Shown: positions 19,201-53,779 of the stretch, one piece after another
Position numbering within the stretch: the stretch's first letter is position 1
Layout: every line of letters begins with the position of its first letter
Assembly (NCBI RefSeq): GCF_964355755.1
Contig: NC_092678.1
Coordinates: 6,296,922-6,360,921 of the forward strand
Direction of reading: 5' to 3'
DNA: 64,000 bases
Source of the DNA: Antedon mediterranea
Taxonomy: Eukaryota > Echinodermata > Crinoidea > Comatulida > Antedonidae
Notes under the pieces: model-generated
The model's input: the letters and a program-made list of their open reading frames with translations, nothing else
Databases searched by the model: none
Told to the model about the DNA's origin: nothing
Translations under genes and position numbers: made by a program

Positions 19201-20745
19201 TCAAACTGTAGATCCAGTGTACATTATTAGGGAGGTTTCGCAACCTTACGAATACGGATACGTCACACATTTGTGAAACTTTTGAGCTGATCCCCATTTC
19301 ATATTCGTAAAGCGTATTCGTGTTGATGAATATCACCAGTCATATGCGTAACTACAAAACGAGTATAGTTTTTGATCTATTTTGCATTTGAATCAGGAAT
19401 GATTCATGATTATAATATAATTATAGATTTATTGAAAGTAATTTACTAAAATGCCATGCAAATGCCATGTCATGCAAATGCAAATGTCAATTTTGATAAA
19501 TAGCAGTTTTTAAAGTCCTCACTCGCTTTGATGTTACGCTAGGCCTAGGACGCCAAGCACCAAGCTACACGTACCTGCGCTTCGCTCAAATTTACCGCAG
19601 TCATATTTTGGACGCGCCTCAATATTTCGTTGCCATGCGAAACAGATTTTTTTATGGCTGACGAAAACGAATACGTGTGCATGACTTATCCGTTTTCGTT
19701 ATCGTATTCGTAAGATTGCGAAACCTCTCTATTATTAGACCATGTGCACTTAAAAATCCTGCCTAAGTACTGTTTCCACATGGCATAATTATACATGTCC
19801 AGTGTCATACTGGTTCTGTAGGCAAATCTGTATTACTTAGCTTAGCTAAAATTCCCATGTTATTCATCTATCTTATTTTAGGAGTATTTGTACTCATTGG
19901 TATCATCGTCTATCCAGCTGGTTGGGATCACAGCGTCATTCAGTCTCTCTGTGGCAGCGATTCCTATGATCTTGGTGGATGTCAGCTACGCTGGGTGTTT
20001 GTGTTGGCAATCGTGGCAGTCTTTGATGCCATCATTTTGGGTATCTTAGCTCTTTTGCTTGCCAGCAAGCATGACAAACTCCACCCTGAACACTTTTCTG
20101 AGTACTATGCGCCTAAAGGTAAGCCTATGATTTGTTTGATTGCCCACTGGACTAGTCAGATTGTACTTGCCCAGTTAGATAGTATACATTTTGAATTTCA
20201 TACACTCTTACAGTAACTTGCCAATATACAGTATCATGGACTACAGTAAGTCTTATTTATTAGTAGTATATGTATTTGAGGTGCCCTGGAAGGGGAGTAA
20301 AATAGTCACAACCCTAGATTGAACCCTTGACCACCAAGCTACAGCCCATTCAATTTTAGCCAAATCAGACTGTGTTTTGCTAACTAAAACTGAACTGACA
20401 ATACAAAGCTAGGAAATGGTAATGCAGAATTTGTTGTGGGAAAAAAAGAAAATGTTTAGATTGTGTTTTCTCTTTTCGTAACCAGCCGGAAAATACTCTG
20501 AAAAAGGCTCCGTTTCCCGAGCGTCCATAGTATCAAGAAACTTCAATGTAAATCCACTTCCAGTAGGAGAAGGCAACGATGACGACCGAAGCAACGCAGC
20601 ATCATCTAGCCATCATGCAGCATCCCCCGTTACCAACCCAACTTACGCAACGATTCAGAAGAGAAATAAAATTCACCCAGATGGTAGTGATTCTAGAATA
20701 GATTCGGACCCAGGACATGATGATAGACAGGATCTTGTGAGGTAG
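12877..20745 (+). CDS. LHFPL tetraspan subfamily protein (LHFPL3/4/5-like, TMHS-type)
   Basis: Three exons, 12877-13294, 19882-20118 and 20486-20745, give 304 residues in one frame with clean GT/AG borders. Four membrane spans are visible: about 23-44, 93-117, 130-152 (across the first junction) and 177-201. The start region (YHTNYVRNSRAI, then FTICFAI and QPYWIGD) is the hallmark of the LHFPL3/4/5 clade. The first extracellular loop keeps the claudin-superfamily pattern Trp48, Gly62-Leu-Tyr, Cys67 and Cys78; loop 2 has Cys163 and Cys173. Human members are about 220-250 residues; this one has an unusually long hydrophilic tail encoded by exon 3. In vertebrates LHFPL5 is a subunit of the hair-cell mechanotransduction complex and LHFPL4 helps place GABA-A receptors at synapses; which role applies here is not decided by the sequence. 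The 6.6-kb intron 1 holds SINEs and MITEs. Confidence 0.92.
13295..16820. other. LHFPL intron 1, first part: no element recognised
   Basis: About 3.5 kb of A+T-rich intron with many copies of short TACTGTA/TACAGTA words (e.g. GTACAGTACTGTACC) and some TAGGCCTA. I see no exon, RNA gene or clear mobile element apart from the 12-bp repeat at 16684. Confidence 0.6.
16684..16752. repeat. 12-bp tandem repeat, about 5.5 copies
   Basis: TACTGTGTTTAT repeated head to tail in LHFPL intron 1. Confidence 0.95.
16829..17232 (+). mobile_element. 5S rRNA-derived SINE
   Basis: Bases about 16867-16972 match eukaryotic 5S rRNA over nearly its whole length: ACCACGTTGAA, GGTTCTCGTC, GATCACCGAAGTTAAGCAA, GCCTGGTTAG, CTTGGATGGGAGACC and GGGTGCTGTA are all in order, so the internal Pol III promoter (box A, IE, box C) is present. 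About 225 bases of unrelated body follow, then an A-rich tail (AATAAAAAAAATAAATAAAA). Lack of the normal 5S 3' end and the tail show this is a SINE, not a 5S gene. A 24-bp segment before it (GAAACAATATGGTTTTACCA then CGTT) is duplicated in tandem at 16829-16852 and 16853-16876. Confidence 0.85.
17251..17616 (+). mobile_element. tRNA-derived SINE (family S1), plus-strand copy
   Basis: Starts with GTGAGTGAGTGGCCGAGCGG, a Leu/Ser-type box A (GGCCGAGCGGTTAAG), then box B GGTTCGAGGCTC about 50 bases on; the acceptor-like ends GAGTGAG/CTCACTC pair. A body of about 270 bases (CATGGTTCTGGTGGTAGAAC, GGTCCAGTGTACACA, AAAGAACCTAGTACATC) ends in AATAAATAAAATAAA. Related copies lie at 40899-41208 and 51005-51300, both reversed. 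Confidence 0.85.
18351..18552. mobile_element. MITE family A copy, degenerate
   Basis: Left arm worn (TATTATCAAACTAGTTTGAC), core ATGGTAGTAATATGCTTAAA repeated several times, right arm CACATAAAGTTGATAG then ACAGAGTTTAA. In LHFPL intron 1. Confidence 0.6.
19062..19104. mobile_element. MITE family A right-end fragment
   Basis: TTTTTTGTCAAACTAGTCTG then ATAGTGTAGACAGAGCTTTA, with no left half nearby. Confidence 0.75.
19223..19738. mobile_element. hAT-like non-autonomous element, 500 bp, with 8-bp target duplication
   Basis: ATTATTAG at 19223-19230 and again at 19731-19738 flank an element whose ends are inverted repeats: GGAGGTTTCGCAACCTTACG at the left and CGTAAGATTGCGAAACCTCT at the right. 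An 8-bp duplication is the signature of hAT transposition. The interior (CATGCAAATGCCATGTCATG and so on) encodes nothing recognisable. It lies about 140 bases before LHFPL exon 2. Confidence 0.8.
19882..20118 (+). CDS. LHFPL exon 2 (rest of TM3, second loop, TM4)
   Basis: Acceptor CTTATTTTAG, donor AAAG|GTAAGC. Encodes GVFVLIGIIVYPAGWD, the second loop with CGSDSYDLGGC, TM4 and the start of the tail (HDKLHPEHFSEYY). YP-GWD after TM3 and the G-C-x-x-RW motif before TM4 are shared with LHFPL3/4/5. Confidence 0.93.
20486..20745 (+). CDS. LHFPL exon 3 (long cytoplasmic tail)
   Basis: Acceptor TTTTCGTAACCAG; 86 codons counting the stop TAG. The tail is hydrophilic, rich in Ser, Asn, Asp and His, with NPTYATIQKRNK and a C-terminus DDRQDLVR. 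It shows no membrane span or recognised domain. Exon phase (1) and frame fit exon 2 exactly. Confidence 0.85.
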
Positions 20746-26494: not shown

Positions 26495-27212
26495 TGTTTT
26501 TTTTATTTTTTTATTTTTTTTTTATTTATTAGGTATAACACTCAAAATGCAACAAAAGTTGAAAACCTTATGAGTTTACAAAAGGTACAACAAAAAAACC
26601 GAGATAAAGATATAAAACAATAGGCCTATACTAAAATTGACATAAAAACAAAACCAATTAAAACATCATACAAAAAAATAATATGCACAACTTTAAAATT
26701 AATGATTATTATTAGATCTAATTAATAGAAATTCAGAAATATATACAAGTTTAAAATTATTCATTATTCATTATTTATAAAGTCCACTTAAAATTTAAAT
26801 TCAAAAATGTCATTAATTCCAAGGATCAATACAATTACTGTATTATTATTTATTTAAAATTCTTATTGCACTAGGAAGAGTTGAATTCCCATAACGGTTA
26901 GTTCTACATCTAGGTACACAGTACTTGTTGAAGGAACGTAAAGTCCTCTCGGGCTTGATGTTCTCGGGTATCCACGAAGTGAAACGCCCAGATGTCACCA
27001 GACTGCTTCCAAATTTGGCAAGTACACCTAACCGTCTGTCTTGTAAAGATGTTATATTCAAGATTTCTAAAGTGTCTTGGTACCCCGTGTAGTTGTTATA
27101 TCCGATGATGATCTTAAAGGCTCTTTTTTGAACAAATTCCAACTGGGTGCATTGCTGTTTAGTGATTGCTGAATGCCATAGAGGACTAGCATACTCCAGT
27201 AAGGGCCTGATG
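26495..27212 (-). mobile_element. 5'-truncated LINE (non-LTR retrotransposon) 3' end
   Basis: On the minus strand the frame RPLLEYASPLWHSAIT, then QLEFVQKRAFKIIIGY, then LEILNITSLQDRRLGVLAKF and a closing SFNKYCVPRCRTNRYGNSTL reads through to a stop near 26846. This is the conserved end of the reverse-transcriptase polypeptide of jockey/CR1-type LINEs (LEY...LWH, QK.A...I.G, L..L..RR). A 3' UTR follows and ends in an A-rich tail, seen on the plus strand as the T run at 26497-26526. Everything upstream of the thumb region is missing, the usual result of incomplete reverse transcription. It is dead. Confidence 0.82.
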
Positions 27213-27448
27213 TACTAAAGGCTTTAAAACCTCGCGATTGGCCAGTAACGACGTCGTAGGCCTACGCCAGTATGTTTTTGTCATGTGGTTCTTATTCGTT
27301 TGGTTACATTCTAAATCTGAAAATCGCATGTTTTTACTCTTAGACATAATACAGCCTCTGAGAGGAGGACTAGAGGGTGCTATTACTGGGGTAATAATGT
27401 TCAGCGCATTGAGAGCTTGCTTATATGCGCTATATAAGAATGAACTAT

Positions 27449-27467
27449 TATTATTATTATTATTATT

Positions 27468-27550
<83 letters not shown>
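27449..27550. repeat. (ATT)n microsatellite, about 100 bp
   Basis: ATT units with one interruption near 27469. A poly-leucine open frame across it is an artefact. Confidence 0.95.
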
Positions 27551-27868: not shown

Positions 27869-28027
27869 TGACGTCATCATAAACCATAGTGCGCATGCGT
27901 CATCGCACGTTTCGGTAATGAACTACTGACCAATCAGAAATAATCACCCATCATGCACCACAAAACATCAGACGACACCGCACGGCGCATCGACGAATAA
28001 AATACATGAAAAGACCATTGGAAAATT
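27869..28027 (+). promoter_or_regulatory. Promoter-like patch and candidate first exon
   Basis: Within 70 bases lie a full CRE (TGACGTCA, 27869-27876), an NRF-1-type palindrome (TGCGCATGCGT, 27890-27900) and a CCAAT box (CCAATCA, 27930-27936), in an otherwise A+T-rich region. Downstream, ATG at 28006 opens seven codons (MKRPLEN) that end at a strong donor, AATT|GTAAGT. A second similar start, ATG 28274 with donor AATT|GTAAGT at 28299, follows 270 bases on. No matching downstream exon was found, so it may be a non-coding or distant-gene promoter. Confidence 0.35.
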
Positions 28028-28619
28028 GTAAGTTTTAAACACTAATTTTAAATATATTTTTAGTTAATTTAGCTTTCATAGCAGTAGGATTACCCAAACG
28101 TAGTAGGCCTATTCGGCCTAGAGGCCTAGTAGAGATTATTAAATATACATTTCTATCCATTCATCTGTTATTAATATTATCTCTAGCAAGCCTAGCCTAG
28201 GCCTAGGCCTCCAGAGCAGAGGCTAGGTAGACCTCTACCTAGGCTACCCCGACAAGGTTTCCGACACGGCGAAATGATGGAAAGAAAATTGAGAAATTGT
28301 AAGTTAAATTAATCATACATTTATTTAGAGTTTAAATTAGCACCAGGGATATTTTTACTCGTTTAGGCCCCTAGTTAGTAGCTAGCCTTAAGGGCCAGAA
28401 TATGCCTAAATTATTTAAGTACGTCTACCTACGTTGTAGGCTAATAATTTTCATCGCATGAGAATGGAGGCCTAGCCTAGGTCTACTAAACTAGGCTTAT
28501 TGCGGGGGATGATCGTGACACTAGACCCAGTCAATGTGTAGGCCTAAACAGATCGCTAGTAGCATAATATATAGCAAACTGTCCATGCTTCTGAAATTCT
28601 TACAATTTTTAATTAGTAA

Positions 28620-28649
28620 TCAATTATTGTCTTAAAAGACAATAATTGA
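28620..28649. repeat. Perfect 30-bp palindrome
   Basis: TCAATTATTGTCTTA is followed directly by its exact reverse complement; no spacer. Function unknown. Confidence 0.9.
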
Positions 28650-29068
28650 ATAAAAATGTACATCCGCCCATGTTGAATTTAAATTACATTTAATACACAT
28701 ATGAATTACATTTATTTATATTACTATATATAGCTTGATATTTTGCAGTTATTTTAACTAAAATTAAGAGAAAAAGCGACGAAATAAATAAAACGTTAGC
28801 GTACGTGTAGTGGGGTTTGGAAAGTTCAAAAACATTCATAAAATAAAGTTTTGTGGCACTATTGTCTATATAATAAGTAAATTAATAAGTGAAGTCTTAT
28901 AATCCCTTCCGCTTACAAAAACATACTGTATTTAGTACGCGCGCGTACTTATAAACAACGTTTGATATCAGCTACTTAGTCATGTGAGTAGCCTAGTCCA
29001 AGTTTTCGGCAAAAAGTGTTATCTCACTCAATGAATATTTTCAGTGTTAATAAATACGACGATAACAA

Positions 29069-29568
29069 TTACGACTTTTGTGGTGATTTTACAATTGCAT
29101 TATTGATTGTTGACGTTTCTAGTTCACTTCTTGAATTCGATATAATTTGTAAATTGGGTGGAGTTGAATGATGAATCTTCGGTATTGCTAAACCAAGTGG
29201 AAAATGAGTCAGCAGTCTAGAGGGCGCTGAGCACGATTGTAAGTTTATCAGGCCAGAAGGCGAGAGGCAGAATGTTGGACCAGATGGCAACGCACTGGTG
29301 GTTCGTGTTTGAGACATTTGCCGGAATAGCCCAGCAGCTTGGAATGGATGATTCATCCCGATCATAAGCGGGAACAGAGAAGCAGGTGGTGGTGTAGACT
29401 GTCGAGATGACGCTGCGAAGTGAGGCGACATGAAGTGACTGATGCTGTGCCTACGATTGTTAGTAATTTCTCTTGACTCTGATGAAGTCGGTGTTGTAGA
29501 CGTTGTTGATGGTAAGGTAGGATGCAGTACAGCGATGTTTGGTATCGATAAAAACGACGGCACCACCG
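29069..29568 (-). CDS. Poxn: Poxn exon 5 (Ser/Thr/Pro-rich C-terminus)
   Basis: Acceptor AATCTCATTTCAG; codes residues 220-385 and stop TAA. Rich in Ser, Thr, Pro and His ([33 protein letters not shown]), typical of a transcriptional effector region; ends KSPQKS. I recognise no named motif. The in-frame join to exon 4 depends on a split codon. Confidence 0.82.
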
Positions 29569-32500
29569 CTGAAATGAGATTAAAATACACTAAATAATAA
29601 AAATCAATAAAAAATCTATATCTACTCCGTTCGTGCCTATTTTACCTGGATAAACGGGCATTAGCCCTTCTCTCCACCGAACAACTAAGAAGAATTTGTA
29701 ACTGAACCACCCTCTCTGCAAATAGGACAGTCTTAAAAAGACTAAAATAGGACAGGATTGTACACTCACAGACCTACTTGACGCCGTCTCTTTAAATCTA
29801 CAAGTTATTAAAGCTTAGTTCACTCTACAAGGACGCCGTAAGCGCATGCAAAGCAATTGTGTTCGGATGGTCCATCGCGTCGTGATTGGTCAAATTACTT
29901 GCAAAGCGATTACATCCTTGCGTTTCGTTATGTTTTACTGTAGTTAATTTTAAAACAGGTGAAATAAACGTATTAACATAGATTCATATATTTCAGAGTA
30001 TAAAATAAACCCCTTTGTTAAGATTCTCCATGGAACATTAACTCCAATACACACATATGCCGATACAATAACCTACGTTATAATAGGACTCGGGCTTACG
30101 GTACATTGAATTATACGTATTTTAAAGACAATTTATCCGGGCATCAAGCGTATCAACCCACGTGTAAGCCATCATTAGTTTTGGCCTAGCAATTTTAATC
30201 GAATAGTATTGTACGAGATGGTTAGAGTTTTAAGAGTAATGATGCGAACCGACTCGGTGAATGTACGTCGATTACACTATATTAAACTTAATCGATCTTT
30301 AATTTAATTATCGCAATCAAGCATACAGAAATTAATTATTAAGGATATCTGCCCAATAGGAGACGATATAGAGATGACGAGATGTTACCGCGCAATAGTT
30401 GACCCAATCACAAGGGAGCAAGCACTAGTACTATCTTTGGTGAGAACGAGGCTCATATTACCGTTTCAAAAGAAGACGTTTTATGTCGTTTTTTAAATAT
30501 ATATTGTCTCCAAAAACATGAAAAATAAAATTATTATTAATAAACCAAACTTGTTTAGTTTTAATAAAGTTATTAAAATAAAAGCAAGAATAACGATTTC
30601 GCTTATAAAACAGAAATAAACAGTTAATTTAACCAAAAACTCGATCATTAACTTCCAAATGTACTTCCAGTTGTCTATTTTTCTCTTTAAATTACGGTTT
30701 TATCAGGTAAATAATTTGGATTATTTGACATGAAGATGGCCTATTCATAGTCATCTGTAATGGTGAAAAAAGTTATAAAGCAACTGCAGATAACAATACC
30801 TCTGAATTTTGATTTCGGACCATTCGATAAACTTCTTTCATCGTCGTCATCATCATTGTCGCCATTCGTTTTTAGTTTTCTTTTCACTCCATTCTTTTGA
30901 AACATCGGCGAATGAAGCGTGAGCGATGACGGTACGGGAGGCATGATGCGTGGGAACGCGTTTAGCGTCGTCTCACGCGTTGGCTTCTGTGGAGTCGGTG
31001 CTGCTAAAGTTGACCCAAACGAGATGTGACGGTGCAGAAACGCCTGTACATAAAATAAAGAAGATTTTATAGAATCAGCATTTTATTACAATAGAACTTT
31101 CCTTTAAAATTAAATACATGCAGAAACACCAGAACAGGACACCTCATATTAAGAAACACGTTGTTCGGTCGCGAATGTGTCTCGTTTTACATGGGCAGTT
31201 CTACCCACATTTTGAATGAATACCCCCCCCCCCCTTGTGACGTATGCGGCGCTTTGATCTGCGTCACCGTTTTTAAGGCGTTGCAAACTAAATGGTCCTG
31301 TATAAAAAAATCTTTGTTATTAGAAGAGAATAGTTAAAAAGAATAGGCCTGCGCTTATAATAATCATGCGTACGGTAGAGAGTTGCTCGCACTGTTTAGG
31401 CCTCCATGGTTGAAGATAACGAACAATCTAGGCCTCAATTCGTACAAGTTCGTAGGCTACTTACCTTATCTGATATTACGATGGAGCTATTGCGAAGAAT
31501 TCTGTTAATTGAACTGACGCTCGGAATGGTGGTCTCATCGCAGACACGTTCTTGCAATAATTTATCCCGAATTTCCCACGCAAAAATAGACGGGTTTTCG
31601 TGTTTGTAGCTCATGATCTTCTTTACAACCAGCGGCGTAGCTACCTGTAAATAAGTCGAACTATTAATACCAGTAGGCCTAGACAATCAGTTTGAAAACG
31701 CCGTTTTTTCTCTTGATCTGTGTGACGCTAGATCAAATAGAGAAGCAAATGTGTTTATGGAATTATAATTCTTTTCTGGTTATTCTGGGTTCGAATCTCT
31801 TTGAGTAAATATAATGTTTTTCGAACTTGCATGCTTTAATTAATATAAAATCTATATATGTGTGGCTTCACTTAGTTCTGAGTTTGAGAAGTTTGGTTAC
31901 CACTTTGACGCAATGTAATGACGTAAGCGCAACATTTTGATCAATCGCCTCATGATTGGTCAATTACTTGCGGTGCGCTTAACGCAAGTAAGGACGTAAG
32001 CTTGGTTCCCACTAGAGGACGCAACGCAAGGACATAGACGCAACGCAAGCGAGTTGACCAATCACACGCGACTGTTCGAGTAATCTATCGCTCGTGATTA
32101 GTCAAATTAATTTGCCTTGCGTTGCGTCATAGTGGCAAACAAGCTTTATTAAGACCTCAATGACAACATTAATAGTGTCAGACCTAATTACAATTAATAT
32201 TCGATTATATAATTCTCTATGTTTCTTGTCATTGTTGATGACGAGAATTTTTTTTGGGTCATGCAACGTCATAAGATAACCACGTGACCTATAAATGAAT
32301 ATAAAATATAATGCATATAATCAAAACTTTTGATTATTTTTTGTACAAAGCTCATCACTTTAAAAGATCTGTGATATCAATATCGTTATTATCCGGACAG
32401 CGTAGAGCGTGTATGCGTAAGAGACTGTTTAAAATCAATAGAATATTTATTTTTTAATTCTGATGTCATTGTTTTCCGAAATTTTCGAGATCAACTCATG

Positions 32501-35500
32501 CGATGTCCTCGTAACGCATCTAATGTAGCTTTTTCCTGTTCTTTGTAATGTTTCATGATTGATGTGATTTTTAAAAGTTTAAATGGGCCATCGGCGGACA
32601 GGTGAAAACATTTAAACGTGTGCATTTATAATCAATAATGACGTCACCAACCTTTGGTTTGCTGCCACCTATACTGCCCGGCTTGATAGATCCAGTTTCG
32701 TAATAACGCGTTAGTATCTTGCTGACGCAACCATGAGAAACGAGTAGTTGACGTGATATGTCACACGGACGCACGCCTAGATGTGCAAGTTCGACGATTC
32801 GTGCGCGAATAAAATCTGGCAGTGGTCTACCATTGACAAAGACCCCGCCCAGTTGATTAACACCGGCCTGACCTAGAAGATAAAAAAGTTATTTTTAGAG
32901 ATAGGCCTACCTCTAATAAAGAAAACTTGTTTAGATTTGTTTTTTATAAATTTCTTATAGATTTTTGAAAGAGCTCTCTATACTATATCCTATTATTCAT
33001 GTTTAATAGAGTTATAGATGTGATATAGAAGTGTTATATAGATATAGATGTAGGCTTATATAGATTTTAATTCGTAGAACAGATAACATATTTCTAAAAA
33101 GTTATGGTATAAATTTCTTATGCTAAAATATTTTTCTAAAGAAGTGCTATTATTGTGTACTGTAGAGTTCTCATAGACTTATCGATAGAGTTGTTATACT
33201 TATATATTTCGTTATAGAGGTTTTTATAAAAATTGTAGGCTTGTGTAGAAATATATATATATTATAGGCCTAATGTTAAATATATAACATTTTATATAAA
33301 TCTATAAAACCTCTATATCGATGTTTCTAAGGATATCTCTATACAATTTCTATCTACACGATATCTATAACAAATCTATCGAAAAATGCCATAGAGTAAA
33401 TAGTTAGAATTTATATAAACATTTTTCTAGATTTAAAAAAAAAATTCTATATAGGCCTAATATATTTTCCTACGGGGCAAATCCATGCTTCCATTGTAGT
33501 AGGCTGATACGGAGTTAACTAATGGCCTAAACAGGTTATAATGTTGACGAATATAACATCGTTTTAACATTCAGCAGATATCGACATATCAATCAGTAAT
33601 TATTACCCTCAATTGGTATAGGCTATAATTTGTATTATATCTCTATAGGTATTTAAAAAAGGTAACATCGGTACATGACTATGCATGCCGAATGTTAACA
33701 GGCCGCCTAACAATACAATAACCTGAAATTTAAATTACTTATTCGATTTGAGAAGGGGGAATTACAAAGCTTTTCTTAACATTGCGGCAGTGAGTCTCAC
33801 TGTATCACCTGCATCTGTCGCGAACCCACATTTTATGTAACAACATCCATTTAGTTTCATACAATTGGGACAGGGATGGTTCAATACATAATCATGTAAT
33901 TTAATTAATTATTAATTTGTTGTCGATTTGCAGAACCCAGTTCCGTTTGTTGTTGATATAGATAAATAGGTCGAAACTCACTACTTAACAATAGGACATG
34001 CCGAATAGGACTTTCCCGTTTTAGAGTAATCATAAATAGATAATATCGTATTTATATAAACAACTGTCTTGCGTAAGTTAATGTTCTTAGCGATTTACTT
34101 ACAGTAGTTATAATGATAATTATGATGAGTAGGCCTATGACAAAAAAAAAATCACGATTGCGTAGTATTTCACCGATGCCCTTATAAAGGCATTACTCTC
34201 GCTTCTAAATACTGTGATATCTAAATTTATAGCTACAATTTCTCAAAGCTTATTCATTATTAAAAATATTATTATGTCATATAATACAAAAATACAATAA
34301 TTGGTGTCACTGATTAAATTATAAAGAATAAATAAATACAGCATAAACAAGAAGTCACATACATTTTTTATTTACCCAATTCTATTTCATAAGAAAGTGC
34401 CATATAAGGTTTGGTTAGGCTTATTATGGCCTATGATACAGACGTCATGTGATACAAATGTGACACTGTATTGCAGAATTTGACTGGATATATTACAGAT
34501 ACAGTACCGCGGATTTAAAAAAAAAAAATTCAATTTCGGGCGTTACCATTTAACGTCATCTATAACACAAATGTATCTTTAATTTTAATGCATAAAGTAT
34601 GGGGCGCCATAATCAGCAAAAGTATACCTTGATTTGTAATATATGGCGCCTTGTTGAGCTACCGTCACTAATTCGATGCTAAACACAAAAGTATCTTTAG
34701 TTTAATTACAGCATAAAGTATGAGGCGCCATAATCAGAAAAAGTATACATTGATGTGTTAGATAGGCTAATATGGCGCCGCGTTGAGCTACCGTAACTAA
34801 TTCTTAAGTCAGTCAATACAATTACTTAAGGTAATTCAAGATATCTTGCCATATTCATTCACAGCTTATGTTGCTTCCTCCTTTACTCTTTTTCATCATT
34901 GCCAAGGTGACCACAGTACCAGAATTGAATAACAGTAGTATAATATGCATGAAATGTTTTGTGCCTATACCTGGATAAACCAACTTTAGCCCCTACCCTC
35001 CGTAGTGAGAGAACAAAACGAATCCCTCTACTTAAAAATGGGACAGTCCGCAACTTTGCCCTCTAGTGGAAACATCCATGCATGCTTAAAACGAAAGTGA
35101 GATCGAAACAGTTTTTGGTTTACTGTCAGCCTTTTCGATAGATATTATTGTAACATTTTTTCCAGCCATAATACTATAAGCTATAGTATGTTATAACTGT
35201 TTCCTAATGCTTTTCCGTTCTCTTGAATATAACTGCCTAAAAGCGCGGCGCGAAAAACACCATAAGCATGAATACATTTTGCTATTATAAATTGACCGGA
35301 TTGATTAAGTTGATAGTAAGAAAGAAAGTATAACGAATGTGTGTAAATGGTCATGATGAATAACGTAGATTCTATATTTTTATTACCGTTACCGCTAGTC
35401 TGTGTGTAAACTGGCCTTTAATGAAAAGAACCTGTTACTCGGTGTAATAGACGTATATAAATATCTCATCTGTGCGTTCAATATTGAAATAATAAACGCG

Positions 35501-38500
35501 TGTTAGACCGTTCGTCTGAAACTCTTAATGTGTCATATTGTTGACGACTAAATTACATTTTATAATCGTTCTTTAAGTACAAATATGTCATTTCACATTC
35601 ACTTACTCACATAAAGCAGTTGTCGAACAATTGAAACGAATACATAAAAGTGGTACAAATCGCGTTAAAACGTCATGATGACGTTGATATGACGAAGTTC
35701 TTATTATTTATTTTTTTTAAACCAGGGTAGGTACAGTGCACAGTAAATTGCTTAAATAAATATGTTAATTGATTTTAAAAAAAATTGAAATTTTATAAGG
35801 GGATTGAAGTCAAATCCAAATTGATTTGCCCTGATTTTCCGGGTTTACCAAAGCTCTGTCTACACTATCAAACTTTATGTGACAAATTAATTAATTGATT
35901 GACAACACCACATTCCTAATACAGAATATTGTCTAACATACAATCTAACAATCTAACAATCTAACAATCTAACTATACATAATAGTTGACGCACACTTTT
36001 AAAGATATATTGTCCCCCTAAAAAAATATTTTTTTTAAATTTTGTTGTTGAATATGTTATTTTAATGTCGCATGCCTAATAGTTATTCACTCTCACAAAA
36101 AATTGGGTCTGAAAAAAATTTATTTACCTGAGAAAAATGTAATTTAAAGCAAAAAATTGTCAAATTGTCTGGAAGACAATGAGTTTTTGGGTAATTTAAC
36201 TGTTTATTTGTCTTTATATAGGTAAAATAATTTTTTCCCCCGTTTTTTTTCTTATGGAAGTGAACAACTTCATTAAAACTGCAAAATGGCCTATTCAAAG
36301 TCCGATTTTAAAAATCTTAATTTTTCATGATTTTGGGGGACAATACATCTTTAATGAGTAGGCTATAATTTATCATTATCTGTCTACACTATCTAATTTT
36401 ATGTGACAAAACAAATGTGATGTACCCTTATAATGGACATAATGATGTCATATAACTACCATATTTGGTCATATTACTACCATATTTGGGCACATCACAC
36501 TTTTTGTGTCAAACTAGTTTACAATTATGTAGAACCTTCCTTTGAAACATCCCTATTCAGGGACACCCCTAAGGAGACACGTTTCTCAGAAACGAAAGAT
36601 GGGAAAATATCACAGGGTCATAGGGTCAACCTCTATTTACAGGCAACATCCTTCGTGGTTTTCTATGTATTTGTTAATTAGAGTATACTGAAGGTGTGCG
36701 AACAGACAAAGTCTACCGAATGTTGGCAATGTTTTTTTTTAACGAAACAACCGCATTATTTTTTTCCTATAGGCCTAAATAGAATAGGGGAAAAAATGAT
36801 GCCGCCCGGCCATTATACCATTTTGTTGGTGGTGACATAAACACGATATAGGTCCCGTTTCTATTTTGTAAACATTTAAGGTATTTGTGGTATGAATATG
36901 ATGGTATGGTGATGAAATCATGGGGGAATATATAATTTGTTCCCATAGATTTCTGGAAAATGGAAAAAAGATAATGCCGCCCGGCCATTATACCATTTCT
37001 GTTGGTGGTGGCATAGACACGATATAGGTCCCATTTATATATTTCGAAACATCTTCTAAACAATGATAGTTTGGTGGTGAAATCATGGATAAATAAAATT
37101 ACAAAGTTAGCATAATTCTGTAATCCACCATAAAGGCAAATTTACACAAATTTATACAAATACCATAAAAATGTTGATTCTTATGACCATGTACACAAAA
37201 CGCGGGGAGTGGACGGGCGGTCTCTGCTTATTTCAAATACTAAAAGGGGTGATCCATTTAATGCCATGGAGGAAGCTGACCCCCGAGGGGCTCCATTATC
37301 ATTATTACATAATATAAAACAAGGTGCCGCATGCATCTGTAACAATTAAGGTTACATAAAAAAGAAGTTATATAAAATAATTAATAATTTTTATCAGGCC
37401 TATCAAATTTTCATTCGTTAGTTCTTATTTTCTCATTTAATGTATTTAACATTTAAAATGTGCCTAAAGTTATTTTCACAGGAATGAATATTACCTGTTT
37501 TGAATGTATGTATGCGTCGCAACAATACAAAATAGGCCTAAATTTTATAATAGGCGTATCTTTCTTTAAAGATATATTTTTCCCCTGAAATCATAATGTC
37601 ATAATATAGTTTTCACTTTTGATTTTTCACTTGAATCGAAAAAAGATATATATTTACCTGAATAAAATGTAATTTAAAGCAAAAAATAATTGTCTCAGAC
37701 AATGAGTTTTTGGTTAAAATTAACCGTTTATTTTATCTTTTTTATAAGTGAAATAATAATTATTTTTGGGGGTTTTTTATTCTACAGAAGTGAATAACTT
37801 AATTAAATGTGAAAAATGAACTTAATGTTTTCATGTTTTTTTTAATTATTTTGATAAAATGTCTTTGAATGCGCCGCAATGTACTGAATACTTAAACGGA
37901 CTTAAATGAAAAATAGGCCTAACGTATATGTTTTCACATGAATGATGACTATTTTATTTATTATTTATTTTTATAAAATGTATTTGAATACTGGATTGTT
38001 ATTTTACCGTTTGTTGTTTTACCGTTTGTTGCGTACATTGCGATGATGGTGAGCAATTAATTGTCTGTTGATCTTTTAAATGTTTTTTTTTATGGTATTC
38101 AATGTTATATTTTTGTACGTGAATAATAAAGAAAGCTTACAAAAATCATGGTGGAAGAATTATTTAGATAAACATTATATTATTATACAGTACTGTATAT
38201 AATTCCTATGCTCATATATTTATTTATTTATTTACATTTATTTACTCAGGGTGGCCCAAACAGTTAAAAACTGGTTTCCATTGGGGCCCTGCATTTTACG
38301 TACAAAAGCAATAGCACACAGTTAATAATGTATAACAATAAAAATATGGAAAAATGATCATCTTTATGTATCTCCCTGAATTACTATGTTTTTATTGTCT
38401 GTGTTTTAGACTGCTTATTATAGACATGTTTTGATTTATTTACAGATTGTATTAGGCCTCTGTACAAATTAGCAAATCTGTTTTAGTTCCGTTTTAGTGC

Positions 38501-39467
38501 GAAAATAAAGCAATTCTCCTGGAGTGCTGAATACGTTATTGAAATTTTGGCCTACTACTAATAATAATGATTTCAAACGAAACAGTTTTTTTATGTTGTT
38601 AATGTGGTAGGCCTATTTTCTGGTAATAATTTAATTTACTGTGGCCTATGACATAGTCTTAAACAAATTAACTCGACTATATCAATTTATATGATTTGTT
38701 TATCATTGTTATTACTATTACAAAATGTTTTAATAATGATTTTTTCAAATTCTACAAACAAAATATTCTTTTTCATTTTGTTTATTTCAGTTTTTAATTT
38801 TTAATTTTAGTTTAGTTTCCCTTGAACATGGGTTTAGTATTCAAGTTAGTTTAATCACGTCCAAGTTTAATCACTTCCAAAATTAATTAATATTGGCCTA
38901 TATAAACATTTTACTGTACACAATTATTTACGGCTTTTATCGAAGAAGAAGAATTACAATTACATTCGATAACTCCAAAAATAAAATTGCGTATAACGTA
39001 AATGTCAGGATACAACAAATAATATTACGATAACGCGCGCAGAAGATAAAAAAAACGCCAGGATATACCCCTCTCAGGTCAAAACTGCATTAACATTAAT
39101 TTTGTAGCAAAAACAATATTACGATAACGCGCGCAGAAGATACGTAATTGCGTATATAATTCGTTACTCGATGGACTTACAGACCGACCAGAACAAATGG
39201 TACGAATTCAATTTATTAAAGCTTTATAAAAAATTATTAAAAACTCGTCAATTTGATTTAATGTCATTAACAATTCGTTACCCGATGGACTTACAGACCG
39301 ACCAGAAAAAATGGTACATAATGCATGCATGTCGGTCACTGCTGCAGCAGGATAGACCGTTACTCAATTATTTTGATTTTTATCGTGAACTCATCAATTT
39401 GAGTTATTTTCATTAACAAAATATATATAATTATTTTTCTTTTTGATGTCTTACCTGTATGCGGCAT
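29069..39467 (-). CDS. Poxn: Pox neuro-type paired-box transcription factor
   Basis: Five exons on the minus strand, 39455-39467, 32652-32872, 31465-31644, 30800-31043 and 29069-29568, join in frame to a 385-residue protein. Residues 5-131 are a full paired domain: the PAI half ([40 protein letters not shown]) and the RED half ([37 protein letters not shown]). Pax proteins bind DNA through these two helix-turn-helix units in the nucleus. [14 protein letters not shown] at the start, [36 protein letters not shown] and LLQERVCD are the residues that mark Pox neuro rather than Pax2/5/8. No octapeptide and no homeodomain, whole or partial, is present in exons 4-5, as expected for Poxn. Pox neuro specifies sensory-organ and neuronal fates in flies and is lost in vertebrates. 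Start choice is fixed by the exon-1 splice and the MPHTG match. Confidence 0.92.
29810..29945. mobile_element. MITE family B copy in Poxn intron 4
   Basis: AAGCTTAGTTCACTCTACAA then GGACGCCGTAAGCGCATGCA; internal CATCGCGTCGTGATTGGTCA and TACATCCTTGCGTTTCG. Confidence 0.75.
30800..31043 (-). CDS. Poxn: Poxn exon 4 (basic/acidic region)
   Basis: Acceptor TTTATGTACAG, 244 bases, donor AGAG|GTATTG; residues 139-219. Pro/Thr-rich at first, then a basic cluster KRKLK (192-196), which could be a nuclear-localisation signal, and an acidic run DNDDDDDE (200-207). No octapeptide or homeodomain. Confidence 0.85.
31465..31644 (-). CDS. Poxn: Poxn exon 3 (RED subdomain)
   Basis: Acceptor TTATTTACAG, exactly 60 codons (residues 79-138), donor AAG|GTAAGT. 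Encodes [20 protein letters not shown] and [20 protein letters not shown], then [14 protein letters not shown]. The K|VATP junction is the usual intron site within paired domains. An opposite-strand frame is a shadow. Confidence 0.95.
31893..31995. mobile_element. MITE family B copy
   Basis: GTTTGGTTACCACTTTGACG then CAATGTAATGACGTAAGCGC; core TTTTGATCAATCGCCTCATG / ATTGGTCAATTACTTGCG. Directly abuts the next copy. Confidence 0.75.
31996..32150. mobile_element. MITE family B copy, near intact
   Basis: AAGCTTGGTTCCCACTAGAG then GACGCAACGCAAGGACATAG; core GAGTTGACCAATCACACGCG / GCTCGTGATTAGTCAA; right end TTGCGTCATAGTGGCAAACA then AGCTTTA. In Poxn intron 2, head to tail with the copy before it. 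Confidence 0.85.
32652..32872 (-). CDS. Poxn: Poxn exon 2 (PAI subdomain)
   Basis: Acceptor TCTTCTAG, 221 bases, donor AAG|GTTGGT. Encodes residues 6-78, the N-terminal beta hairpin and three helices of the paired domain, ending [13 protein letters not shown]. Confidence 0.95.
33000..33440. other. Poxn intron 1: TATA(G/T)A-rich stretch
   Basis: A run of loosely repeated TATAGA/TCTATA words (e.g. TTATAGAGTT, CTCTATATCGATG). No element or exon recognised. Confidence 0.5.
34425..34512. mobile_element. MITE family C copy, partial
   Basis: CCTATGATACAGACGTCATG then TGATACAAATGTGACACTGT and ATTGCAGAATTTGAC, matching the copy at 10264-10420; only one arm is well kept. Confidence 0.6.
34552..34803. 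repeat. Tandem duplication, unit about 120 bp
   Basis: Two copies of a segment containing GCATAAAGTATGGGGCGCCA, TAATCAGCAAAAGTATAC and GGCGCC..GTTGAGCTACCGT, ending ACTAATTC. Copies differ at about one base in ten. Confidence 0.88.
35849..35890. mobile_element. MITE family A left-end fragment
   Basis: AAAGCTCTGTCTACACTATC then AAACTTTATGTGACAAAT; no right half follows. Confidence 0.85.
35936..35985. repeat. 11-bp tandem repeat
   Basis: AATCTAACAAT-type units, about four copies. Confidence 0.85.
35999..36356. mobile_element. MITE family D copy (ends TTAAAGATATATTGTCCCCC)
   Basis: TTAAAGATATATTGTCCCCC at 35999-36018 is inverted at 36335-36354 (GGGGGACAATACATCTTTAA). The interior (TTTACCTGAGAAAAATGTAA, AGACAATGAGTTTTTGGGTA) recurs at 37563-37850. 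Confidence 0.8.
36379..36532. mobile_element. MITE family A copy
   Basis: CTGTCTACACTATCTAATTT at the left; core CCTTATAATGGACA and CATATTTGGGCACATCAC; right end CAAACTAGTTTACAATTATG is worn. Confidence 0.75.
36790..37065. repeat. Tandem duplication, unit about 175 bp
   Basis: ATGCCGCCCGGCCATTATAC, then GTTGGTGGTG and ACACGATATAGGTCCC, occurs at 36798 and 36973. The reverse-strand open frame of 98 codons reflects the duplication. Confidence 0.9.
37563..37850. mobile_element. MITE family D copy, worn
   Basis: TTTAAAGATATATTTTTCCC at the left; TTTACCTGAATAAAATGTAA then TTTAAAGCAAAAAATAATTG and CAGACAATGAGTTTTTGG match the copy at 35999. The right end is not clear. Confidence 0.65.
38217..38300 (-). 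mobile_element. LINE/SINE 3' tail fragment
   Basis: T-rich run ATTTATTTATTTATTTACAT then ACTCAGGGTGGCC ... AAAACTGGTTTCC ... GGGGCCCTG. The same arrangement (ACTGGGTAACC ... AAAGACTGGTCTCC ... GGACCCAG) forms the tail of the SINE at 40899, so this is probably the shared 3' end of a LINE and its SINE. Confidence 0.5.
39015..39320. repeat. Interleaved short duplications upstream of Poxn exon 1
   Basis: AATATTACGATAACGCGCGC then AGAAGATA occurs at about 39021 and 39115; AATTCGTTAC(T/C)CGATGGAC then TTACAGACCGACCAGAA occurs at about 39159 and 39271. They lie inside Poxn intron 1, just 3' of exon 1 on the gene strand. Confidence 0.85.
39455..39467 (-). CDS. Poxn: Poxn coding exon 1 (start codon, MPHT-G)
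   Basis: Thirteen coding bases: ATG CCG CAT ACA G, then the donor GTAAGA. Joined to exon 2 (GT CAG GCC ...) it reads [15 protein letters not shown] tiny first coding exon before the paired domain is common in Pax genes. The 5' UTR continues to higher coordinates. Intron 1 is 6.6 kb. Confidence 0.85.
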
Positions 39468-40030
39468 TATTTGTTTTTCTTTATACGCGTTGTCACCTTC
39501 CAATCAAACAGAAGTTGTTGAAACTGTAGCCAAAACCCACACGACAACTTTCCTATTCGCACGCAGAGTCGTGAAAAGCCGGAGATTCACTGGCTTGTGT
39601 CTTGACGTCAAATGACATGAAATCCAGATTGATCGTTTTAGTTTTGTCCCCGATTTGCCTATTAAAAGCGATAACGATTCGCTGAGGTGTTGGACGCCAC
39701 TTACACTGCAAACAGATCGAACGTCTGATCAACCGAGCGTGTAGCGAGTAACAGGCGTATTACCCGAATTTGTCATTCCCAATCCAAAATTGATACCGCC
39801 ATAGAAACAAAACACCTGCGTATTCTTGGTTACCATAGCGATCAAAGCATTCTCCCCTTAGCGCGGAAATTGCGAGGAAGTTTACCGTAGCAGGCGTAGC
39901 GTGAAGCAACCATCAGAACGTGCATCGGAAGGCCGACAAATAAATTGTTTTTCATTACTATACGTCTCTTGTCGCTAAACTGTGTTCGCAGCGCATAGTG
40001 TGACGGCCTGGGCAGGTGTTTCTCTAGTCT
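39468..40030 (-). promoter_or_regulatory. Poxn 5' UTR and CpG-richer upstream region
   Basis: CpG dinucleotides are more frequent here than in the surrounding DNA (e.g. CGAGCGTGTAGCGAG, CCTTAGCGCGGAAATTGCG, GCAGGCGTAGCGTG). This fits a Poxn promoter on the minus strand, but no transcription start or factor site can be fixed. A reverse-strand open frame of 63 codons within it has no recognised product. Confidence 0.4.
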
Positions 40031-40359
40031 CATGTACCTAGGCCATTGTCCTTCGATACAGGCCTAACAGTTTTAGATAATAGCATGTTAAAAAATCTTA
40101 ACTACTTTGAATTAATATGGACGACTAAGAACATGAACAATTCATGCATGGTCATAATTATAGCAAAGCTAATCCGTCTGTGTCAGTTTTTCTACATTGA
40201 TCATTTCACATTGAAGCTGACTTTAACTCTTTCAATAATACGAGAAGAAAAAAGATTTAACGTATTAGGCCGTTTAAATGTTTAAATAAAACGTAAGGTA
40301 ATGAATAACAAAGTATGCTGCTTATGCACAAAAATAATAACCGATTATTTTTGTTTTTA

Positions 40360-40475
40360 AAGCTCTATCTACACTATCAAACTGGTGTCCAAATAGCCCA
40401 AATATGATAGTGATGACATCATCATGTCCATATAAGGGCACATCATATAAAGTTAGATAGTGTAGACAGAGCTTA
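40360..40475. mobile_element. MITE family A copy, short
   Basis: TAAAGCTCTATCTACACTAT at the left, GATAGTGTAGACAGAGCTTA at the right; TAA on both sides. Confidence 0.85.
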
Positions 40476-40898
40476 AGTGAATGATAAATTATACTCATTA
40501 AAAGTGTGCATCAACTATTGTATGTTATATAATATTTAATAATTTTGTATTATGAATCTGGTGTTGTTAATAAATTAATTCATTCATAATTAATAATTTA
40601 TTAATTAGACTCGTAAAATATTTATAATACGTCGATCTAGCGCTTAATGTACAAGCCTCTAAGCGCTTCACATGGAGAGTAAAGTTATATCCGCGCCGAA
40701 CGCAACGTGCGCCACGTATGTTAAAATACGTGCGCAAATTTTATATGTTGACCTGAAGTATAATTGTTAACATTAGGTAATAGAGCATATGTATATTACA
40801 AGGTCAAACATCGAACGTTTGTTTTTAATTGCATCTTGATGTATTTCCAAATGAAATTTTGCTTTGTTATAGGCCTATACTTTGAAATTGATTGATTG

Positions 40899-42174: not shown

Positions 42175-43161
42175 ATGTTTACCACTATGTTATTAATTAA
42201 CCGTTTTATGTCTGGAAAGCAAGTGAACAGGCTTGTGTAAGTAATAATATAAGAATAATTATGGCTTATTTTCGATTTTTTTTTTCGATAAAAATGTAGG
42301 CAATTGTATGCGTTGTGCTCTGCGCACTGTGGCTCTTTAAGATGGTTTCGCTTCGTTTATTTATTTATTCGATACAATAAGCCTATATTTCTAAAAAGCA
42401 ACAAAGAGATAAAAAATGCTTGGCAGGGACAGCTTAAGAAAAATATATCGCTGTAACTCATATGAGTTACGTATACCATTGTGATCTGATATGTGTTTTG
42501 TTGAAATAGATCAATCGAACCACCAAAGACCAAGCCGGCAGAACCGATGGCTCCTTACACATTATACGTATTAAAGAAAAACCTTAAAAAGTGCCCAGCT
42601 GTGGAGACCAACAACTCCTTCTGTGTGTTCGCCAAAGCTCAATGGCCTTGGATGTCAGCTCTTTGCTATCATCCGAACGTCAGTTCCGTAGAAGGCACTA
42701 ATGACGGGCTTGCAGCTCATGTAGATCTACTCAAAGACCAAAAAGACTACCTCGCCTCTAAGCCTAAAGAATTAGCAAACATGGCAAAGGAACACGAAGA
42801 GCATCTGGCTAAAAGAGATGTTCTTCAAGGACAGAATGCTGCTTTAGAAGCTGTGTTGAATCTGATGGACCATGCTATGGAGAAAAAGAAATCCGCCATC
42901 GAATGTGAAGAAAAACGGATTGCTAATATTGCCAAAGAGCTCATGCTAACAGCTGGTAAAAGAGACACTGCTAAATATGTATTGGACAACTTCAAGAAGC
43001 AGTTGGAGTCCTTCGAGAAATACTTCGAAGAAAAGAAGGAAGAATACCAGAAAGCGATGGCAGCACTTGATGAAAAGGTGGATGGTCTATTCGAGGAAGA
43101 TAAGACACAACTCCACCGCAGTTACTCCTCAAACTCTTCTGATCTTCCGAACCTTCAATAA
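42175..43161 (+). CDS. Coiled-coil protein with HMG-box-like start (SMARCE1/HMG20-like order)
   Basis: Exon 2 (42510-43161) is a long clean frame; exon 1 (42175-42236, donor CTTGT|GTAAGT, acceptor TTGAAATAG) joins in frame to give 237 residues. Residues 25-73 resemble an HMG box: PPK....P.APYTLYVLKK, then SFCVFAKAQWPWMSAL, close to the family pattern (P-Y--Y--K, then SF---AK-----W--M) but one residue short and with the third helix missing. HPNVSSVEG follows, then a charged coiled coil over about residues 85-225 (HEEHLAKRDVLQGQNAALEA, LDNFKKQLESFEKYFEEKKE), and a Ser/Asn-rich end. SMARCE1 (BAF57) and HMG20 proteins have HMG box followed by coiled coil in chromatin complexes; that link is tentative. 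Polyadenylation signal AATAAA at 43301. An overlapping +1-frame ORF near the end is a shadow. If exon 1 is wrong, ATG 42547 would give 204 residues. Confidence 0.7.
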
Positions 43162-45229: not shown

Positions 45230-46097
45230 ATCATCATTATACACAATGGAAAAATCTATTATTATAGTTATTTATAGTCACGGTAATAACCAGTGTGTAT
45301 GATTACCTTGAAAAAGCTTGCTTAATAGATGCATAAATTACTGCAGTAACTGCAGTAGAATAAGTTTGACATGCTCCCTTACTATAGTAGTATACAAACA
45401 ATCTTTATATTTTCTTCCCATGAATGTGCCTGATTATGAGAAAAAGTACATGAAAATTAATCACGCCAAATCTTATCTTATAAAGAGGTAATCGCCAGCG
45501 GAAGTTCATTCTCTTGTAATCTTTTATTTCCTTGGAGCGTTAAATGAAGCCGATATATACATACACGGTTATACAGTAAAAATGGCCTTGGGAATTCTTC
45601 AATAATTACTAAGATCTTACTGAGCTTAAGTAATAGAATTCTTTAATTCCCCCATTGAAAAATTAAGCAACATTTCCCCTGTTCAATTGTCAGACTATTC
45701 ATTCGTAATTTTGCTGATGTTTGACAGCGTTTAAAGTTTAAGTATCCTGGTACACATAAAGTACGTTAAAAACGTAAATCATGTTCACCTTGTACTCAAA
45801 TAACTTTTTAAATTAAAGCCATGTGAGTGCAGTCATCAAACACACTTGCCACTGAAAGGTGTAAGGTTTGAATGTTTGTTCTAATGATGTTACCGCATGC
45901 CTCGTAAGGTTCAATTACAGCTACTGTACATGTTATTGTTAGATAACTAACAGCATTCCTTTTTATATAGTAAAAACAGTTGGCCAACTGTGTGTTTGTG
46001 TGACAGTGTTTTAAGTTTAAACCATAGTTACATCTAACTGTAAATGTAACAAATTGGCTCATACAAAGAAACTTTTTAAACTGTTGGGAACACATAG

Positions 46098-46793
46098 GGC
46101 CTGTTAGTAGGGGTTGAAAATACCAGCTTATTCCCGATTTCCGTTCGCGTGACCCAATTAACTTTTGCCTCAGGCTACAAAAAATTTGAGGCAAAATGTT
46201 CACCAAATTTGCAGGTTATTTCAGCGATAATCCAATTATACTCGGCCTTCGAGGATAATAAATCTCCGATAGAGGCATTGTGTCAAATTTTGACAAACGT
46301 TCGCTGCCTAGGCCCGTCATTTCTCCTACGAAGCTCTTCCATACACGCTTCGAGAGCGATCGTCGGCTGGTGCTGTCCTTGTTGGTGTAGACCGCTTAGT
46401 AGGCCTAGCTGGTCGGTGGTGTTTCGTCTAACATTGGGCTCAAATTCTTCGTCAATGAGTAAAATAATGGTCGTCAGGAGAAGGCATATTTCGGCAGGAT
46501 TATCGGCGTTAAGAGGCATAAGGTTTGTCGCAAGGATAAGCAGTGTAAAAGGTAGCAAGTAATTGTTATTGTAAAGAAAGATCGCGAGTAAAAAATATAC
46601 AACAAGAAACTAGCGCGCGAAAATTGGGTCGTAGGTTGTAAAGACAAATGACCTTAAAACGTAATTTCCGGTTTGTGATTTGTCGATTAAGCATTCAAGC
46701 GGTTAAATATTTCAAGTACGAACGACGCTCAATTTATAACCCGACGCATGGGTGAAATTAAGCGCTTATTTTAACCACCGTACGAACACGACC
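46098..46793. mobile_element. 0.7-kb inverted-repeat element, copy 1
   Basis: GGCCTGTTAGTAGGGGTTGA at the left and, reversed, GGTCGTGTTCGTACGGTGGT at the right form imperfect inverted ends. ATAG flanks both sides. The whole unit is about 95% identical to 53075-53776. A reverse-strand frame of 91 codons (NPAEICLLLTTIILLID, TIALEACMEELRRRNDGPRQ) has a counterpart in copy 2. Family unknown to me. Confidence 0.85.
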
Positions 46794-48718
46794 ATAGACT
46801 AACAGTATTATATGATGACACCATTAGCTGCAATGTATTATATAATGTATGTTTGGTGTTTGGAGTTTTGTTATCTGCTATATTAAATGAACTCATCAAA
46901 TGTCATCTTGTTGACAAATACCAGGAAGCCACCTCATTGGGAGGTGTTGCTAATGGAAGCAAATCAAAAGGACTACAGAATCATGTCTCAAAAAAGATAT
47001 ATTAATCCCCAGACCACTATAGCAAAACTCTACCCTATTCCCTGGATGCCTAAATTGATCCATGCCACCAGTCTAGCCTATCCCAAGGTGTCCAGTTCTT
47101 CAATCAGCAAATTTATCAATGTCTGTCCATTACTGTCAGGTGAATCTCAAATTCTATCCAAGGACTTTCTTAATTGTTAAGATAATGTTTTGGTGGTAGC
47201 CAATGTAGCATATTGGCCTACTGTACTTATTCTTGGTGTTATTTTCTCGTTAATTTTTCATACTCATTGCAGAAAAGTGGACTGTTTGTTGAGATATGTT
47301 TAGGTGAGAGCCACTTTAGCATGTTTGTTGGGTTAATGTTTCTTCAAGCTATTTATATACTGTAATTAACTATCTTTATAGAGAATGATATTAAGGTGTC
47401 CTCTGCAAATTGGCCTACTGATAAATGATGATGGTAGCAAACTACAGCCTAATTTTTAATAATTACCCTTCACTTATTACTAAACTTCACAATAGCCATT
47501 TTGAGGTTGCTATGTACAGTTCATCAGCCACAGTCACGTTTTTCTGCCAAAGCGGTTGCACATTCGTCTGCCAGAATTGATTTTTTCTGCCAAAGCAATT
47601 GCACATTCATCAGCCAGAGTCAACTTTTCCTGCCAATACTGTACGCGTCACCATATTAATTATTAGAGGTTAAATATAGAAGAAATCATATCTACAGTAT
47701 TGGTACACAGGATAGCATTATCAGCTAATTCTGTAGTGTGAACAGGGCTTTAATATCTATCCCTGGTGTTATTGAATTAATTGAATTAAAACCAGTAGGA
47801 ATAGGATACAAATTGATGGTGACAGATTAACTGCCTATACTACTTAATGGAAATACTCTTATCATAACACAACTCAAATTCACAGTCATCAACACCAAAT
47901 GCTATTACACTGAGATGTAAACAAACTGCTTTCTTTAATTGAAGAGTTATTAGGTTTTAGTAATTGAGGTTTTCAGTGTGAGAGATGCACTGAGATAGGT
48001 CAGCATACTGGTCAAATAGATGGGCGTCAATATGACCATTTTAAATGCATCTTATCTTTATTATTTTGAATATTTCTCAAAAGGGTCAATGTACAATAGT
48101 CCTTTGGAACCCAATAAGTGGTTGTTGGATGTTGGGTTACAATTATTTGTTTCACAGGAAATGTCTCCTTAATAATATGGATGTCTTCCTATTGATGTGA
48201 GTGTCTTTTAAATAGGAGCGCCCAAAGAATATTTTCTACTGTAGTAGTAATTTTATGTTTTACATCCTATCTCTTTTTCTGCGGTTGTGCCCAAGGATAC
48301 AACCAATACAAATAAAAAAAATTACATTATAATATGGCCATTGGCAGCTACTATTTAATTCATGGCATACTTTTTGGCAACCGTAAAAATCTAAAAAAGC
48401 AACTAGATTTAATTCGTCACTATGACGAATTATAGGTTATATGCATTGATTTAAATAAAGATAATTGATTGATTTAAGATATATTGATTGATTGATTTTC
48501 TCAGAATCATTAGTTATTTATAATATATGACAGGATCTTGCTAACGCAAATACAATAGCCGGTATCATAATCCGATCAAAGATCTTTCTGCGTATATAAT
48601 GTCATAAACCACATTTGTGTTTTTATTTAGATTTCATTATAAATCATGTGTATAATCTATACACTAAGAAATATAATTGAACAACCAATACGGATAATAA
48701 AAAAAATCTTATTTCGTT

Positions 48719-52405: not shown

Positions 52406-53074
52406 CGCAAGAAGGACTATACTGTGAAAAGTGTGAACATTTTATTTTTTATTCATATTTTAAATCAAATCTGTTTTCTATTTATAGATGAATAATTATC
52501 CTATTCTATTCATTGCCAGCCATTCTGTTTGTCCTAATTAGTAATTTAGCAAATCCATAGGTTTTCATCCCATTCCTATCTGTTTTCTGGGATTAATATC
52601 CATATAAAGTGACCACATAAATAGGTCATTGCCCAGTCAGTAACACTAAAAGGTTAAATAGGACATTATAGGTCTATGTAAATGATGTTTGACAATATAA
52701 TGATCATTTTCAACACGTTTTTACACCTATATTATCAAAATTTATTGTTGAATATTATTAAATAAAGGGAAAGTGTTAAAGGTTAAGCCTTAAGGGAACA
52801 AGTAAGTGGAGTAAATGTGGAATAAATAAGATTTTGTGAAAAGAGAAATTAATCATCAATATTCCAAAAGCGAGTTATTTATGTTAAAAACCATTGACCA
52901 TGTCAAAGGAATTTTATGTTGAAAATAAATTATGATTTTCTTGCTGTTAATTATGACAAACATTCTTATAATGAGGTCAGCTCCAGAACAGAATGCTTAG
53001 CACGTTGTATATTATCAACAAAGGTTTATTAAAATTTATGAGCAGTTTCTAGGATCTGGGTGCTTTACATTTAG

Positions 53075-53776
53075 GGCCTGTTCGTAGGGGTTGAAAATAC
53101 CAGCTTATTCCCGATTTCCGTTCGCGTGATCCAATTAACTTTTGCCTCAGGCTACAAAAAATTCGAGGCAAAATGTTCACCAAATTTGCAGGTTATTTCA
53201 GCGATAATCCAATTATACTCGGCCTTCGAGGATAATAAATCTCCGATAGAGGCAAAACGTTCGCTGCCTAGGCCCGTCATTTCTCCTACGAAGCACTTCC
53301 ATACACGCTTCGAGAGCGATCGTCAGCTGGTGCTGTCCTTGTTGGTGTAGACCGCTTAGGAATACACCCCGCTTAGTAGGCCTAGCTGGTCGGTGGTGTT
53401 TCCGTCGTGTAACATTGGGCTCAAATTCTTGGTCAATGAGTAAAATAATGGTCGTCAGGAGAAGGCATATTTCGGCAGGATTATTGGCGTTAAGAAGCAT
53501 AAGGTTTGTCGCAAGGATAAGCAGTGTAAAAGGTCTAGCAAGTAATTGTTATTGTAAAGAAAGATCGCGAGTAAAAAATATACAACACGAAACTAGCGTG
53601 CGAAAATGGGGTCGTAGGTTGTAAAGACAACTGACCTTAAAACGTAATTTCCGGTTTGTTATTCGTCGATTAAGCATTTAAGCGGTTAAATATTTCAAGT
53701 ACGAACAACGCTCAATTTATAACCCGAGGCATGGGTGAAATTAAGCGCTTATTTTAACCACCGTACGAACACGACC
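53075..53776. mobile_element. 0.7-kb inverted-repeat element, copy 2
   Basis: Matches 46098-46793 end to end. Relative to copy 1 it has a 17-base and a 4-base gain within the reverse-strand frame (near 53360 and 53401) and lacks 17 bases near 53254. Ends GGCCTGTTCGTAGGGGTTGA and CCGTACGAACACGACC. Confidence 0.87.
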
Positions 53777-53779
53777 ACA

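Follow-up and report, generated by a model that had tools for sequence, protein, structure and literature searches.

According to the available part of PMC6065069, the nephrozoan ancestor had at least seven subfamilies of Pax genes, one of them Pox neuro (Poxn), and the accessible portions of two further reports place Poxn in hemichordates and echinoderms (PMC5333810) and in cephalochordates, with a loss in tunicates and vertebrates (PMC4488758). As far as the excerpted text of PMC5333810 goes, the exon 2/3 junction of Drosophila PoxNeuro lies at KPKQVAT, lophotrochozoan PoxNeuro has an inserted Q (KPKQVAT) and a first helix that is tribasic, and an octapeptide is credited to ecdysozoan Poxn, implied for Poxn of Saccoglossus and not clear for lophotrochozoan Poxn. 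The gene described here lies on the minus strand of a window of 64,000 nucleotides (the whole stretch of DNA that was analysed). With a probability of roughly 0.9, judged from its sequence, it would be the only Poxn orthologue in the genome of an ambulacrarian, perhaps of a crinoid, and would encode a transcription factor whose only DNA-binding part is a paired domain. It resembles Poxn of Drosophila melanogaster in having a paired domain and no homeodomain and in L44, T55, PGSIGGSK and TPxVVKKI, and it shares with the Poxn genes of Saccoglossus kowalevskii, echinoderms and cephalochordates an occurrence among deuterostomes other than tunicates and vertebrates (PMC5333810 and PMC4488758, both in excerpt).

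The coding sequence runs from an ATG at 39467 to a stop codon ending at 29069 and encodes 385 residues in a single open frame, so that the extent given in the preliminary description (29069..39467) is exact, and its overall observation of a complete gene with a paired domain is confirmed; its mention of five exon junctions is to be corrected, as five exons give four. The exon lengths of 13, 221, 180, 244 and 500 nt add up to 1158 nt in the same frame throughout, and each of the four introns has a GT donor and an AG acceptor, with phases of 1, 0, 0 and 1 (Table 1). With these four introns, an intact domain and no internal stop codon, it is most improbable that the gene is a retrocopy or a decayed pseudogene. 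The full paired domain noted earlier is borne out by a match to all 125 positions of Pfam PAX (1-125; 228.8 bits, E 1.7e-68, cut-off 22). In the genome search, exon 2 corresponds to PAX positions 1-86 and exon 3 to positions 64-125, the former match continuing beyond the donor and the latter starting upstream of the acceptor. Exons 4 and 5 matched no Pfam family, and exons 1, 4 and 5 are predicted from splice sites, phase and frame. The opening residues of exon 1 are identical to those of Drosophila Poxn. Sixty simulated windows with the dinucleotide frequencies of the real one served as a control for frame length: exon 5 lies within a stop-to-stop frame of 190 aa, which barely exceeds chance because the longest simulated frame was 189 aa, and exon 4 is the least certain exon because its frame of 113 aa is within chance (on average 2.08 frames of that length per simulated window).

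Table 1. Predicted exons of the Poxn gene (window positions) and other Pax loci of the same genome (contig positions)
Feature	Position	Strand	Description
Exon 1, coding part (predicted)	39455..39467	-	MPHTG; in-frame ATG; donor GTAAGACA; ends in phase 1
Exon 2	32652..32872	-	N-terminal half of paired domain, QAGVNQLGG...GGSKPK; acceptor CTTCTAG, donor GTTGGT; ends in phase 0
Exon 3	31465..31644	-	C-terminal half of paired domain, from VATPLVV; acceptor TTTACAG, donor GTAAGTAG
Exon 4 (predicted)	30800..31043	-	Linker with basic/acidic stretch; acceptor TGTACAG, donor GTATTG; ends in phase 1
Exon 5 (predicted)	29069..29568	-	Ser/Thr/Pro-rich C-terminal region and stop; acceptor CATTTCAG; frame agrees with phase
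Pax1/9	C10		Read from translation
Pax4/6	C7		Read from translation
Pax2/5/8	C6, 9.7 Mb		Read from translation
Diverged second Pax2/5/8-like copy (L008 and L006)	C6:25634831-25635723		GGSYANGRPLPPTIRQ; lysine at position 44; has the two Pax2/5/8 introns, in phase
L003, Pax with FSVENILG and KKRKHE	C8:10496331-10496705		Perhaps Pax-alpha/beta
eyg-like candidate	C8, 15.3 Mb		Partial PAX match (57-109) with a homeodomain match about 1 kb away; named by position only

The highest paired-domain identity was found to human PAX5 (101 of 124 residues), against 100 of 126 for Drosophila Poxn. This leading single match, the missing Q insertion in KPKVATP and the short basic/acidic stretch that follows the paired domain would all fit a diverged Pax2/5/8 duplicate which kept its paired domain and lost the octapeptide and the partial homeodomain that chordate Pax2/5/8 proteins possess. 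The phylogenetic analysis comprised 17 rows, namely the window gene, five paralogues from its own genome, four PDB chains and seven paired domains entered without a database record, among them Drosophila Poxn as the sole Poxn reference. In the tree of all 17 rows the window gene grouped with this Poxn row at 80/77 (bootstrap/SH-aLRT), and support rose to 96/92 without the long-branch paralogue L003, was 96/91 without L003 and the diverged copy at 25.6 Mb on C6, and reached 94/95 in a set of 9 rows; in a tree free of all rows that lacked a database record the window gene was unplaced. Constraining it into Pax2/5/8, the grouping named beforehand as speaking against Poxn, was disfavoured, with AU p values of 0.048 in the 17-row and 0.014 in the 9-row analysis, 0.054 with the 25.6-Mb copy of C6 included and 0.023 without both long branches. 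In addition, neither of the two residues unique to the Pax2/5/8 rows is present in the window gene, and the introns, considered below, speak against a Pax2/5/8 duplicate as well, which leaves this reading improbable.

The paired domain of the window gene, which we regard as Poxn, is cut by an intron in phase 0 at KPK|VAT. Pax3/7 genes have an intron at the same place. Both Pax2/5/8-type loci on C6 contain phase-2 introns at ILxR| (ILxR|YYETG) and SINR|, and both of these cuts are absent from the window gene although the C6 loci have retained them in the same phase. The paired domains of two further loci, L001 and L003, are uncut and lie in one exon each. The KPK|VAT intron coincides with the published junction of Drosophila Poxn, which separates the PAI half of the domain from the RED half there as it does here (PMC5333810, as excerpted), and the intron position supports the orthology with Poxn as an independent line of evidence.

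A second competing explanation, according to which the gene belongs to Pax-alpha/Pax-beta or another minor Pax subfamily resembling Poxn, hinges on L003, the presumed member of that subfamily in this genome. The window gene and L003 are identical at 89 of 126 residues and share QLLVSHGC and NRILRNS, and in the 17-row tree the window gene, Poxn and L003 formed one group (74/81). Three alternative arrangements had p values above 0.05: L003 with Poxn (p 0.30), L003 with the window gene (p 0.20) and the window gene with the 25.6-Mb copy of C6 (p 0.076). With regard to the tree proposed as a check in the preliminary description, the gene groups with Poxn (80/77, and 96/92 once L003 is left aside), but the pairing of L003 with the window gene was not rejected. 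On the other hand, Pax-alpha/beta would be represented more plausibly by L003 itself, because this gene combines the octapeptide FSVENILG, a subsequent KKRKHE and an uncut paired domain, none of which is found in the window gene; a KRKHEDED signal has been described in one Pax-beta (PMC5333810, in the part available). Identity to Drosophila Poxn likewise favours the window gene (100 of 126 residues versus 87 of 126 for L003), and we consider its assignment to Pax-alpha/beta improbable too, by a shade more so than a Pax2/5/8 origin.

QLLVSHGC and NRILRNS had been taken initially to distinguish Poxn from Pax2/5/8, yet both are unspecific and cannot separate Poxn from every other Pax gene, because L003 of the same genome carries both. 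At the columns where Drosophila Poxn differs from 8 other rows (n=24), the window gene shares six residues (Q2, A3, L44, T55, S67, Q106) and L003 five; Q2 is also present in the rows of PAX3 and Gsb. Both the Q insertion and the tribasic first helix are missing in the window gene, which reads KPKVAT and RAR and in this respect differs from Drosophila Poxn, which has RRR. At the acceptor of exon 3 (TTTACAG|GTAG) there is no AG immediately before the CAG that would allow a variant with an additional Q. Since the insertion and the tribasic helix were published for lophotrochozoans and not as a rule for deuterostomes (PMC5333810, excerpted text), we regard them as features of a lineage rather than as defining features of Poxn.

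The absence of a homeodomain, part of the original description of the gene, holds both for the protein and for the window, into which fell none of the 104 matches of a whole-genome homeodomain search (150 of 163 candidates scored). A consensus octapeptide is likewise missing: the strict pattern matched neither the 385-aa protein nor any of the six frames of positions 28000-40500, where the single hit to a looser EH1 pattern lay in a 38-residue frame within intron 1. A loose look-alike in the protein is HSISHFM at residue 260 in exon 5; when the C-terminal part was shuffled, 2.9% of the shuffled sequences contained a match of this kind, and we would not count HSISHFM as an octapeptide. A missing octapeptide had also been put forward as a mark of Poxn; it is no hallmark, however, because ecdysozoan Poxn and, by implication, Saccoglossus Poxn are said to have one in the accessible text of PMC5333810. 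Here the window gene departs from both Drosophila Poxn, in having no consensus octapeptide, and Saccoglossus Poxn, with at best HSISHFM in place of the octapeptide implied there. One might speculate, with considerable doubt, that Poxn lost or eroded its octapeptide in this lineage, and with it a direct contact to Groucho, and that a protein capable of repression would have become octapeptide-free independently of lophotrochozoans. Taken together, the interpretation as Poxn is supported in part: the tree (96/92 without L003, 80/77 with all rows) and the intron position speak for it, while the signature peptides, the octapeptide argument and the dating of the loss (see below) do not hold in the form first given.

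By analogy with Drosophila Poxn, the protein is predicted to specify sensory-neuron or, more generally, neuronal identity. The PAI and RED halves of its paired domain, both helix-turn-helix units, would bind a bipartite DNA site, and the Ser/Thr/Pro-rich tail would carry regulatory activity. Position 44 sets specificity in Pax5 and Pax6, where it is occupied by arginine or glutamine (R44 in human PAX5); the window gene has leucine there (in QLLVSHGC), and its site preference should differ from that of Pax2/5/8 for this reason.

The assembly comprises 354.4 Mb in 18 contigs, C1 to C11 holding at least 339.8 Mb, a lower bound obtained by adding the lengths of five of them to the farthest match position on each of the remaining six. 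A search for PAX returned 10 matches at seven loci, and no second gene of the same kind as the window gene is among them; none of the 10 matches was read as Pax3/7 from the translations of all loci except that at C8, 15.3 Mb. Cnidarian PaxA is likewise devoid of octapeptide and homeodomain; this identity was considered and dropped because the host possesses an ordered Hox cluster of 12 genes. The cluster is located at C2:7827797-8206132 and consists of 12 homeodomains, 11 on one strand and one inverted at 7848422, which by their signatures we take to be, in order along the cluster, Hox1 to Hox8, Hox9/10 and three genes of the Hox11/13 type; a further homeodomain match at 7793581 is a thirteenth beside it. 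It is best read as ambulacrarian, and the earlier notion of a probable echinoderm is plausible insofar as the cluster points to an ambulacrarian, the phylum and the class (echinoderm, crinoid) being inferred. COX1, sought in the assembly for a phylum test based on the mitochondrial code, gave no match. Eleven large contigs would fit a crinoid. The available parts of two reports give 23 chromosomes in two hemichordates (PMC11175523) and a diploid number of 36 to 46 in most echinoderms (PMC3308324), which makes 11 look atypical of the phylum. Beyond this genome, a pattern for the half of the paired domain that exon 2 encodes matched 18 stretches among the viral contigs (viral_contigs), none of which encodes a relative.

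The gene adds one more example, sound and unremarkable, to Poxn, a family of regulators of neural development already known in echinoderms, acorn worms and amphioxus. It had been suggested that a deuterostome gene model helps to date the loss of Poxn from vertebrates; this date is unchanged, because cephalochordate Poxn already puts the loss in tunicates and vertebrates (PMC4488758) and Poxn of echinoderms and hemichordates is in print (PMC5333810), both sources being available in part. Among the open-access papers listed, none named a crinoid Poxn, which is a weak negative. The complete gene model with its intron positions, from an ambulacrarian whose Hox genes form an ordered cluster, can serve as a reference for the classification of Pax genes, and it is useful for asking which role Poxn plays in such an animal.

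Several other features were noted in the window. Poxn is neighboured by a gene for a tetraspan protein of the LHFPL family (12856-20216, plus strand), which has at least two exons matching Pfam L_HMGIC_fpl with 85.2 and 63.3 bits; the PDB matches of its first exon are LHFPL4 and LHFPL5. On the opposite strand to Poxn and 3 kb upstream of its start, a frame of 218 aa with the look of a coiled coil (42505-43161, plus strand) showed no Pfam family above the cut-off. A stretch on the minus strand at 26846-27214 resembles in appearance the C-terminal part of the reverse-transcriptase ORF of a LINE; it had no Pfam match at E 0.1 and is adjoined by a TAT microsatellite (27446-27550). The palindrome TAGGCCTA occurs in 34 copies in the window, compared with 0.65 (first-order) to 1.2 (second-order) expected, and nothing among the literature titles listed bears on it as a taxonomic mark. 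Finally, a repeat of about 700 bases occurs twice (46090-46797 and 53067-53780) at a distance of about 6,980 bases, and its copies are 96-97% alike over three ungapped blocks.
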